Shown: positions 9,075-30,394 of the stretch, one piece after another
Layout: each line of letters starts with the position of its first letter
Numbering within the stretch: the first letter of the stretch is position 1
Source of the DNA: Clostridiales bacterium
GTDB lineage: Bacteria > Bacillota > Clostridia > Lachnospirales > Lachnospiraceae
Assembly: GCA_020860565.1 (NCBI GenBank)
Contig: JAJBUA010000062.1
Location: 1 to 32,959 of the forward strand
Length of the DNA: 32,959 nt
Direction of reading: 5' to 3'
The notes under the pieces: generated by a model
Seen by the model: the letters and a program-made list of their open reading frames with translations, nothing else
Database searches by the model: none
What the model was told of the DNA's origin: nothing
Program-made: the position numbers and the translations under genes

Positions 9075-9165
9075 TAATCGAGCAGGAGGCTGCTTTTTGC
9101 CTCCTGCTCGCCGCGCGGGGCGGGTGCGGCGCAAGCCGCGAAATTCCCTGCCCGGCTCTGTGCAT
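9075..9165. repeat. Structured dispersed element, copy A
   Basis: This ~90-bp segment is a diverged copy of 29027-29117. It contains a perfect 12-bp hairpin (9079-9090 with 9099-9110), then a longer outer stem (GGGGCGGG at 9117-9124 with CCCGGCTC at 9151-9158) enclosing GCGGC-GCAA-GCCGC (9126-9139). The loop GCAA is a GNRA tetraloop on the plus strand. Differences from copy B are largely compensatory within stems, which points to conserved RNA structure. Its strand and function are unknown; it may be a REP-like repeat or a small RNA. Confidence 0.75.
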
Positions 9166-9199
9166 ATAAAGGCAGCCGGAACCTTGTCAGGGTCCCGGC
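9166..9199 (-). terminator. Terminator-like hairpin after the DUF1540 gene
   Basis: On the minus strand GCCGGGACC (9199-9191) pairs with GGTTCCGGC (9183-9175) in a 9-bp stem with one GU pair, followed by TGCCTTTATAT. The U tract is imperfect, so termination may be partial. It abuts element copy A. Confidence 0.6.
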
Positions 9200-9220: not shown

Positions 9221-9541
9221 TTATCTTGTCTTAAACGTATCACACAGCGTCTGCTCTGCCGTGTTTGCGCTCTCCCCTCGGATCCCGATCTGCTCGGCGC
9301 GGCAATGCCGTTTCTCGTTGTAGATACAGTTGATCGCCTCGCAGTCGATCTCCAGACGGTTTTCCGGTGTCTTGAATACATTTTGAAAGAAGCCGTCTTT
9401 ATTCTCATCAAAGCTTCCGCAGCATGTATCTTCTTTCGCCATTGCCTCATGACCGTCGACAACAATCGCCTGCTTACAGCAGCGCTGATCCGCGTTGTGC
9501 ATACAGTTTGTCACACTACAATCCAGTTTTGTCATATTCAT
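9221..9541 (-). CDS. DUF1540 double-domain Cys-rich protein
   Basis: A 106-aa protein with two copies of the DUF1540 motif: LDCSVTNCMHNADQRCC with IVVDG (residues 6-30), then IDCEAINCIYNEKRHC with IGIRG (65-89), each followed by one or two late Cys. The spacing suggests each unit binds a metal, but this is untested; the family is common in spore-forming Clostridia. The frame opens 10 codons earlier at 9571, but AGGAGG lies inside that extension, 5 bases before the ATG at 9541, so the start is here or two codons later (MTKLDC). It stands alone between thrS and element copy A. Confidence 0.88.
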   Translation of the reverse strand: MNMTKLDCSVTNCMHNADQRCCKQAIVVDGHEAMAKEDTCCGSFDENKDGFFQNVFKTPENRLEIDCEAINCIYNEKRHCRAEQIGIRGESANTAEQTLCDTFKTR

Positions 9542-9706
9542 GCATACCTCCTGTGAATCATTTTTTGCCATACACCGTTAGTATGCATTTTTTATCGATT
9601 ATTATTCGTAACAATCCGGAAAATACAGGATATCTCCGCTATAATTTTAATGATTCCAATACAGCGTACTGAAAAGCCCTGTACGGAGAAGAACCGACAT
9701 CAATCG

Positions 9707-11632: not shown

Positions 11633-11644
11633 ACAAGTACTCCT

Positions 11645-11890
11645 TTATAATTTAAAAATAAAAAATCCCCTGCCACATAAAAATATATGGCAAGGGACGA
11701 TCATTACCGCGGTTCCACCCTGCTTGACAGGGATCATCAGGAATCCCCATCCTCTCATTCTGACGATAACGGAGTCACCGTGTCCGATTAAGGACCGCTC
11801 TGAGCTGGTCTTCCCGACATTTCCTGTGAGATGCTTCCACCCGCCCATCTCTCTCTGAAACATTCCATGAAGGTACTCTTCTCATCAACG
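11645..11890 (-). promoter_or_regulatory. T-box riboswitch, threonine specific
   Basis: A complete T-box leader for thrS. Stem I is closed by CGTTGATGAG (11890-11881) pairing with the region around 11795-11804; the specifier loop reads GAAGACCAGC, with Thr codon ACC at 11809-11807 followed by a purine as usual. The T-box sequence AGGGTGGAACCGCGG is at 11721-11707. Uncharged tRNA-Thr is expected to pair with ACC and the T-box bulge, favouring the antiterminator and thrS expression. Confidence 0.95.
11655..11697 (-). terminator. Terminator of the thrS T-box
   Basis: GTCCCTTGCCATATA and its partner TATGTGGCAGGGGA fold into a long stem followed by a T-rich tail (TTTTTTATTTTT). It competes with the T-box antiterminator just upstream. 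Confidence 0.9.
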
Positions 11891-11912
11891 CTTTGTCTTT
11901 CAGCTAAATCCG

Positions 11913-26337: not shown

Positions 26338-26370
26338 TTTCCCATCCTCCTCTTAATAATTTTTTTAAAT

Positions 26371-26412
26371 GAAAAAGCGCGAGACAAATCATCCTTTTAT
26401 TTGTCTCGCGCT
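26371..26412 (-). terminator. Expression-platform terminator of the glycine riboswitch
   Basis: AGCGCGAGACAAAT and ATTTGTCTCGCGCT form a perfect 14-bp stem (26412-26399 with 26389-26376), followed by TTTTTC. The 5' arm shares two bases (26412-26411) with the 3' strand of aptamer 2 stem P1, so ligand-stabilised P1 and the terminator compete. Confidence 0.92.
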
Positions 26413-26565
26413 CTGTCATATTTACCTGAAAGATTCCCGGTCGCCCGGTTGCTTCGTCGGCGCAGCCCACGGCTGCTTTCCAGAGTATCGTCAGAAGCTG
26501 GTCCTTTTGCCTGAGAGTTTCTCTTCCCCTTCGGCGCACACCTTTGTATCTCTCCCAGCAACCTC
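26411..26565 (-). promoter_or_regulatory. Tandem glycine riboswitch
   Basis: Two aptamers lie in a row on the minus strand. Aptamer 1 (about 26565-26487) has P1 GCTGG/CCAGC, GGAGAG, GCGCCGAAGGGG and AACTCTCAGGC. Aptamer 2 (about 26485-26411) has P1 CTCTG/CAGAG, GGAAAG, GCGCCGACGAAGC and AATCTTTCAGG; the change GGAGAG to GGAAAG is matched by CTCTC to CTTTC. A terminator follows, so glycine binding should switch the gcv operon on. Confidence 0.95.
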
Positions 26566-26596
26566 ATCCGATTACTATTCACTTATTTATGAACCT

Positions 26597-29026: not shown

Positions 29027-29117
29027 TAATCGAGTAGGAGGCGGCTTTTTGCCTCATACTCGCTGCGCAGAGCGCGTGCAGCGTAAGCTGCTAATTTCCT
29101 CTCGCGCTCTTGTGCAT
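29027..29117. repeat. Structured dispersed element, copy B
   Basis: Diverged copy of 9075-9165, same orientation. Hairpin 1 is CGAGTAGGAGGC/GCCTCATACTCG (29031-29042 with 29051-29062, one mismatch) with a loop ending in CTTTTT as in copy A. The outer stem AGAGCGCG/CGCGCTCT (29069-29076 with 29103-29110) is perfect and encloses GCAGC-GTAA-GCTGC (29078-29091); GTAA is again a GNRA loop on the plus strand. The end GTGCATAAAAAGCAG is shared with copy A (GTGCATATAAAGGCAG). Confidence 0.75.
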
Positions 29118-29150
29118 AAAAAGCAGACACTCCTGACGGATATGTCTGCT
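29117..29150 (-). terminator. Terminator of deoB
   Basis: On the minus strand AGCAGACA (29150-29143) pairs with TGTCTGCT (29129-29122) and is followed by TTTTTATG. It lies 31 bases after the deoB stop and its U tract runs into element copy B. Confidence 0.82.
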
Positions 29151-29180: not shown

Positions 29181-30371
29181 CTATTTCAATTTCCTTAAAA
29201 TCGAAGCTCCGACCGTCCCTTCCGGCATCTCTACTCCGAAATTGTCCGCGATCGTGGCACCGATAATGGCAAAGGTATTCTCCTCCGGCAGTTCTCCGCT
29301 TCCTTCCATAGATGGCGAATACGCCAGAAACGGCACCTTCTCCCGTGTATGATCCGTTCCGCTGTAAGTCGGATCATTTCCGTGATCCGCCGTGATGATC
29401 AGCAGATCATCCTCTCTCAGGGTATTCAGCAGAATTCCCAGATTCCGATCGAACTTCTCAATCTCACGCGCGTATCCCTGCGGATCTCTCCGGTGTCCCC
29501 ACAGAGCGTCAAAATCGACCAGATTTACAAAGCAGAGGCCGTGGAAATCTTCTCCCGCCATGGCAATCGTCTGCTCCATGCCGTGAACCGAGCTTTTTGA
29601 TTTCAGTGCTTTTGTGATCCCCTCTCCATCAAAGATATCCCGGATCTTACCGATGGAGATGACATCCAGCCCGGCAGCCTTCAGTGCGTCGAGGACTGTC
29701 CTGCCGAACGGTTTCAATGCGTAGTCATGACGGTTGCTCGTCCGTTTGAACTCTCCCTTTTTCTTGCCCACATAAGGTCTCGCGATCACCCGCCCGACCT
29801 TCCACTCGTCCTTCATCGTGATCTCACGGGCGATCTCACAGCACCGGTACAGTTCGTCCAGTCCGAACGTCTCCTCATTGCCGCAGATCTGCAGTACGGA
29901 ATCTGCGGATGTATAAACGATCATATGACCGGTCGCGATCTCCTCTTCTGCCAGCTCTTCCAGTATTTCCGTACCGCTGGCGCTTTTATTGCCAATGACC
30001 TTGTGCCCGGTTCTCTCTTCCAGTTCCCGGATCAGTTCCGGCGGGAATCCATGTTCGGTAAATGTCTGGAATGGCTTTGTCACTTCCAGCCCCATCATCT
30101 CCCAGTGTCCCGTCATTGTGTCTTTTCCGCGGCTCAGTTCCTTCAGTTTTGCATAATAAGCCAACGGGTTTTCCACCGGCTCTGCCTGTCTGAGCGGACA
30201 TAAGTTTGCCATCCCCATTTTCTGCAAATTAGGGATCTCGAAGCTGTCCACAGACTCTGAAATATGTCCCAGCGTGTTCACTCCCACATCCCCGAACTCC
30301 TGAGAATCTTCCATTGCGCCGATTCCCAGAGAATCCATAACGACCACAAATATCCGGTTCCATTTGCTCAT
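29181..30371 (-). CDS. deoB: Phosphopentomutase
   Basis: Interconverts ribose or deoxyribose 1-phosphate and 5-phosphate, feeding nucleoside sugars into the pentose phosphate pathway. It belongs to the alkaline phosphatase superfamily: metal-binding [20 protein letters not shown] at the N-terminus, a mid-protein KSASGTEI carrying the phospho-Thr site, and the later [14 protein letters not shown] and [19 protein letters not shown] metal ligands. The frame opens six codons earlier, but GGAGGAG supports the ATG at 30371 (396 aa). It begins 23 bases after the CmpB-type gene and is last in the argH-led row. No nucleoside phosphorylase genes are adjacent. Confidence 0.96.
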
Positions 30372-30394
30372 TTGCCCATCTCCTCCCATCGGTT

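Follow-up and report, generated by a model that had tools for sequence, protein, structure and literature searches.

The same folded sequence occurs at two distant places in the window, the whole 32,959-nt stretch of Clostridiales bacterium DNA analyzed in this study. This raises the question of why its shape is kept at both. A preliminary description had proposed a two-copy element, maintained at each place as an RNA. Our analysis indicates that the matching folds are most likely due to a tiny mobile element and not to two local regulatory RNAs.

Structure of the two copies in the window

The window contains the following copies and neighboring hairpins. The copies are matches to a covariance model of the family (R1, see below), and their parts are predicted folds.

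9077..9170, plus strand: copy 1 of the repeat (103 bits, E 8.5e-23)
9079..9110, plus strand: hairpin 1 of copy 1
9113..9163, plus strand: stem 2 of copy 1, with an inner stem, a GCAA loop and a one-sided bulge containing ATTCC
9175..9199, minus strand: terminator-like hairpin of the DUF1540 gene (9221-9571, minus strand), fold z -3.0
29029..29122, plus strand: copy 2 of the repeat (104.4 bits, E 3.7e-23)
29031..29062, plus strand: hairpin 1 of copy 2
29064..29116, plus strand: stem 2 of copy 2, with a GTAA loop
29123..29149, minus strand: terminator-like hairpin of the metalloenzyme-family gene (29181-30389, minus strand), fold z -3.3

The two copies align end to end with 79% identity over 96 bp, as had been described. 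The exchanged base pairs reported in their stems are present in the sequence, together with the GCAA and GTAA loops. Copy 1 comprises hairpin 1, stem 2, TGTGCAT and the start of an A-tract. The copies had been ended at 9165 and 29117; the model matches extend them to 9170 and 29122, where they abut the terminator hairpins. Read from the sequence, the T-rich tail CCTTTATATG of the DUF1540-gene hairpin meets the 3’ end of copy 1, and the T-tract GCTTTTTATG of the metalloenzyme-gene hairpin meets the 3’ end of copy 2.

Both copies are about 5 standard deviations better folded than 200 dinucleotide shuffles on either strand. The z values for the two copies and two strands are -5.26, -5.03, -5.02 and -4.72, and none of the 200 shuffles was as good in any of the four cases. 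An Rfam scan of the window found only a T-box and a glycine riboswitch above the gathering threshold, and nothing at either copy. A permissive scan of copy 1 gave 8 matches, all below threshold. The earlier reading that the element belongs to no recognized class is consistent with Rfam, which has no such family.

A dispersed family with conserved pairing

A BLAST search with copy 1 as the query gave 48 matches in the genome of the window (G000). From such matches 34 copies were picked and aligned (alignment A2), leaving out copies with a long insert, and R1 was built on this alignment. With a cutoff of E<=0.01, R1 has 82 matches in G000, including both window copies, although those near E 0.01 may be chance. 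‘Two-copy’ therefore describes the window and not the genome.

The RNAalifold consensus of the 34 copies contains 27 pairs, 17 of which show changes on both sides. These are distributed over all helices, at 5 of 10 pairs in hairpin 1 and at 8 of 12 and 4 of 5 pairs in the two helices of stem 2. Paired cells make up 96.9% of the alignment at these positions. The covariation score is 0.379, compared with 0.174 for shuffled and 0.038-0.063 for slid controls, the slid control being flattered by a structure derived from the same alignment. The preliminary description was thus right that the shape is kept by compensatory change, the covariation being far above controls.

The unit has a constant plan of hairpin 1, stem 2, TGYGCAT and an A-tract. 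Stem 2 includes an inner five-pair stem with its loop, and a long bulge on one side contains ATTCCTT or a similar sequence. The loop is GNNA in 26/34 copies and GNRA in only 9/34, the most common form being GTCA (13 copies). A conserved GNRA loop is consequently a property of the two window copies and not of the family. Some G000 copies (L035, L036, L037, L038, L041, L042, L043, L045 and L046) carry a structured insert of ~55 nt at the foot of stem 2, which contains GCGGAGC(GTAGAC). Copies in other genera follow the same plan with different letters in the stems. In other genomes a second type of repeat continues with GCGGAGCG and a third hairpin.

To look for a long autonomous form sharing this 5’ end, we ran a hairpin-1 pattern on G000 and the sister species G019; none was found among the places followed up. 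The pattern occurs at 37 places in the two genomes. All 24 in G000 are inside R1 matches, and 6 of the 13 in G019 are outside the R1 matches listed, one of these being a long-insert copy in L120. A conserved-hairpin pattern was found in 3 stretches of the genome contig collection.

Searching related genomes with the covariance model, as had been suggested, revealed further copies. At E<=0.001, R1 has matches in at least 19 of 61 relatives, counting its own genome. They include at least 12 of 24 members of the genus (own genome counted), at least 6 of 13 in the rest of the family and at least 1 of 24 in the rest of the order. Among 150 family genomes, again counting its own, at least 30 have matches. 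Copy 1 as the query matched nothing in plasmid and phage records.

The repeat adjoins T-tracts of terminators

The 3’ end of the repeat meets a T-tract, as read on the minus strand, in a single orientation; in most cases this T-tract belongs to an intrinsic terminator. A fold at z<-2 is present in the 55 nt that follow the element in 78% of 64 copies in G000, 78% of 46 in G019 and 76% of 25 in G012. For the 55 nt before the element the values are 16%, 13% and 28%, respectively. These percentages cover copies without another copy next downstream, from the best 71 of the 82 G000 matches (69 usable), 54 matches of G019 and 30 of G012. By a mechanical longest-ORF rule, the nearest ORF on the right of the 82 G000 matches is on the minus strand in 60, on the plus strand in 21 and absent in 1, and the left-hand gene is on the plus strand in 44 and on the minus strand in 34. 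Several exceptions are found directly upstream of ribosome-binding sites, and there too the minus strand is T-rich. CATA is common at the filled border of copies.

Two further terminators in the window are free of the repeat and have copies in G019.

11640..11667, no strand assigned: repeat-free site on the T-tract side of the T-box leader terminator; G019 has a copy (L131:3826-3921)
11690-11897, minus strand: T-box leader (Rfam scan) upstream of a threonyl-tRNA synthetase-like gene
26344..26376, no strand assigned: repeat-free site at the T-tract end of the terminator downstream of the glycine riboswitch; G019 (L133) has tandem copies
26489-26567, minus strand: single glycine riboswitch aptamer (Rfam scan) upstream of a gcvT-like gene

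The tandem copies at the G019 glycine riboswitch terminator have a run of N in between. In G036, which belongs to another genus, two copies (L050 and L069) differ from each other at a single base. Both adjoin what we take, from a leader motif seen in the flanks, to be T-box-like leader terminators. At ~3590-3800 of L131, a different long palindromic repeat (GTTCCTGAGAGGAAAGAATGTCC ... GGACATTCTTTCCTCTCAGGAAC) lies beside the element at the G019 T-box site. This palindromic repeat is absent from the T-box site of the window.

Turnover between sister species

Sites were compared between G000 and G019. Searches with 32 G019 flank pieces gave 26 matches in G000, and 20 places plus the T-box site of the window were compared (21 sites). 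The alignments of 10 sites were uninformative. Seven sites are cleanly empty in G000 as read by eye (L189, L190, L192, L195, L199, L204 and L207), and none of the seven has an exact CATA at the junction, again by eye. Scars of a lost copy are seen at 3 of the 21 sites (L198, L203 and L205); at some of the empty sites, too, a copy may have been lost instead of never gained. The T-box site of the window is also empty, and G019 holds another repeat there besides.

Ten sites are occupied in both species and provide 11 copy pairs, three of which include a truncated or long-insert copy; the rearranged copies L035/L125, L109/L162 and L114/L127 are omitted. The right flanks of these pairs are 85-99% identical and the left flanks 66-96%, with at least 88% in 9 of 11. 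The elements themselves are 72-92% identical, which places them at percentiles 3-94 of 2287 random pairs. Elements at shared sites are no more alike than random copies. The closest pair of copies at unrelated G000 loci is 100% identical, with right flanks 65% alike.

The second type of repeat also differs between the species. A copy of ~118 nt follows directly after a terminator in G019 and is absent in G000 (L089 vs L141). TTTTTACTT flanks this insertion on both sides as a possible duplication, an arrangement expected from neither intron homing nor simple Y1 transposition.

These comparisons do not support an RNA whose shape is maintained locus by locus. They point instead to a dispersed repeat that turns over and is placed by T-tracts and terminators.

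Polar tandem arrays

Many copies are preceded by older ones. In three genomes, the flank upstream of 51 of 166 matches has the ending of an older copy; some such short endings may be due to chance. Stricter patterns were applied to 146 matches, including the best 62 of G000; of these, 7 with a poor 5’ end and 1 with a short flank were set aside. Among the rest, an older copy is represented by its 3’ module only in 25, by both modules in 15 and by its 5’ module only in 8, and nothing was found in 90. The downstream control gave 3 and 0 of 144. When the eight 5’-only cases were read, three looked like chance; the other five were either a true 5’ remnant or older copies that are whole or almost so. 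Inspected by eye, the 25 remnants with the 3’ module only have their start in the bulge in 14 cases and within the inner hairpin in 6; this truncation count is biased, since a new copy protects the 3’ end of the old one. The host flank is intact at one such site (L151/L207). Decayed remnants are many, and internal deletions occur too.

Arrays in G000 and G019 usually have the junction TGYG|ATCGAG and those in G012 TGYGCA|ATCGAG, with one CAT|ATCGAG in G019. At the site of copy 1, G019 retains the beginning of an older copy resembling that of the window, followed by a new copy of another type at the terminator. In these sequences, new copies lie between the terminator and older, decaying copies, making the tandem arrays polar.

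Strand and level of selection

Plus-strand G.U is frequent at a single pair in the foot of stem 2, occurring in 20/34 copies of G000, 15/56 of G019 and 25/30 of G012. This favors the plus strand as the folded one. At the other pairs, G.U and A.C cells number 25:18 in G000, 35:40 in G019 and 26:35 in G012. The lack of a consistent G.U excess over A.C outside the one pair suggests free decay of resident copies. The fold thus seems to be selected in moving copies and not at each locus.

Mechanism of movement and alternative explanations

The dispersal of the repeat, the near-identical copies at unrelated loci and the site differences between sister species lead us to conclude that it is very probably a short (~90 bp) non-autonomous mobile element. 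It would be placed by T-tracts and terminators, and its fold would be selected while it moves. The mobilizing enzyme may recognize a folded single strand containing hairpin 1 and stem 2. Selection for pairing in the moving lineages could then give rise to subfamilies with swapped pairs, while resident copies would decay. The preliminary description had named a known REP or insertion-derived repeat as an outcome against its reading. Insertion-derived origin largely applies, with no known REP or insertion sequence matched.

A tentative route, to which we give somewhat less than an even chance, is that a Y1 enzyme (IS200-type, HUH) transposes the element in trans as single-stranded DNA. Such an enzyme might since have been lost or be unrecognized in several carriers. 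This route is consistent with several features of the first type of repeat, which lacks inverted ends and evident duplication, has a hairpin close to each end and shows a short, fixed border and a single orientation. Three IS200-like copies (L080 in G001; L220 and L221 in G019) start after a hairpin and ...TATG, as judged by eye, and the repeat, taken on its minus strand, likewise starts behind a hairpin and ...TATG. The second-type repeat adjoins the insertion sequence in L221 and L080. The ends of the three IS200-like copies do not resemble the repeat. A fixed TATG target would predict CATA at empty sites; CATA is common at filled borders, and an exact CATA is present at none of the seven clean empty sites.

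Co-occurrence analysis with the transposase families Y1, IS110 and Y2_Tnp found no mobilizer. Y1 is present in 16/30 carriers and 77/120 other genomes (p 0.30), and G000 contains a single Y1 fragment. In a chosen set, neither IS110 (9/12 carriers, 10/12 non-carriers) nor Y2_Tnp (4/12 in each) was associated with the repeat. The group II maturase GIIM does not track it either (11/30 carriers, 47/120 others, p 0.84), and RVT_1 is absent from the carriers G020, G034 and G036. These negative results are weakened by the draft state of all the genomes, since drafts often lack insertion sequences and introns.

Retroposition of a structured RNA of ~90 nt, SINE-like on A-rich targets, would account for several of the same observations, and we regard it as unlikely. 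A plus-strand RNA ending near CAUAAAA would pair with the 3’ end of the T-tract (TTTTATG) and be reverse-transcribed into the site, with polar accretion and 5’ truncation of old copies. The T-tract side always holds the 3’ end of the element, and CAT seems to be supplied by the element, clean empty sites having no CATA. Priming by the T-tract would explain both the CAT and the 5’-truncated remnants, which exceed those with both modules or the 5’ module only. The bulge and inner hairpin, where most of them start, might stall a polymerase, and the host flank at L151/L207 is undamaged. However, neither reverse transcriptase family noted above tracks the repeat, and the sole reverse transcriptase of G000 adjoins a retron-type RT-2 RNA. 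The shielding of old 3’ ends by new copies and the internal deletions also count against this reading.

Two readings do without movement at present. If the repeats acted in place as functional RNAs or 3’-end elements, in terminator insulation, RNA stability or attenuation, their fold, covariation and steady position by terminators would be expected. Yet the type of element differs between sister species at the same site, G.U is not in excess outside one pair, left-hand genes lie in either orientation and decayed remnants are many, and we consider such a role very unlikely. Least probable to us is that movement has ceased and gene conversion homogenizes or swaps old fixed repeats. The shared ends could seed such exchange, and the seemingly random element identity at shared sites agrees with it. 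Clean empty sites and extra copies speak against it, and so does the G019 copy-1 site, which keeps the old remnant beside the new copy.

Implications

The covariation in the preliminary description is true and most likely reflects a mobile element’s life cycle. If this is right, a tiny mobile repeat lands time and again at terminators of these bacteria, riboswitch and T-box terminators among them, and gene ends and attenuators are rewritten repeatedly. The polar arrays would record the order of insertion. That strong covariation can come from such a life cycle calls for caution in covariation-based RNA discovery.

Comparison with known systems

REP/BIME sequences are described as short dispersed extragenic palindromes in which complementary changes keep pairing, presumed to be moved in trans (PMC2817692). 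The repeat resembles REP/BIME with RAYT in being short, dispersed and extragenic, with pairing kept by complementary changes. It differs in that its unit consists of two different stem-loops, linked to terminators in one orientation. REPs have a GT(A/G)G head before the palindrome; the repeat has GTAG in 17/34 copies and GCAG in 14/34, with these bases inside the stem. A RAYT gene flanked by two inverted copies was not encountered, and the Y1 fragment locus of G000 (L118) has no R1 match at default search strength (best E 0.4).

Group IIC introns insert after a stem-loop such as a terminator (PMC7923331). The repeat similarly sits just after a terminator-like stem-loop, apart from the exceptions before ribosome-binding sites. 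Unlike these introns, it is ~90 nt long and its presence does not correlate with a maturase, and a search for the group II ribozyme core gave no Rfam intron match at the copies. In G019, the 5’ end of a group II intron (L210, G019:C23) follows a second-type hairpin, a T-tract and TTTTTTATG. This 5’ start was placed by eye from the start motif of such introns. Separately, L209 (G000:C78:10800-13800) contains a 405-codon reverse transcriptase ORF, encoded on the minus strand, and next to it an Rfam RT-2 RNA match; this locus is probably a retron.

Hairpins near both ends, the lack of inverted ends and the single orientation are shared with IS200/IS605 elements and their non-autonomous derivatives, as is, by eye, the TATG border of the three IS200-like copies. 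Ends in common with a resident autonomous element were not found at 11 Y1 loci (L077-L084, L118, L220 and L221). Two of these loci have an R1 match, both being second-type repeats beside the insertion sequence. Like classical MITEs, the repeat is short, non-autonomous and intergenic. Unlike MITEs of the DDE type, its ends ATCGAG and TGYGCAT are not inverted copies, and no target duplication is evident by eye at clean empty sites of the first type.

A search of the open-access literature, judged from titles and the starts of abstracts, yielded no paper that we recognized as describing the repeat. It represents a real family of structured, mobile, terminator-associated repeats without an Rfam match, not recognized in the open-access literature searched. 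While it misses a defining feature of each, the repeat resembles REPs in its life style and group IIC introns in its target.
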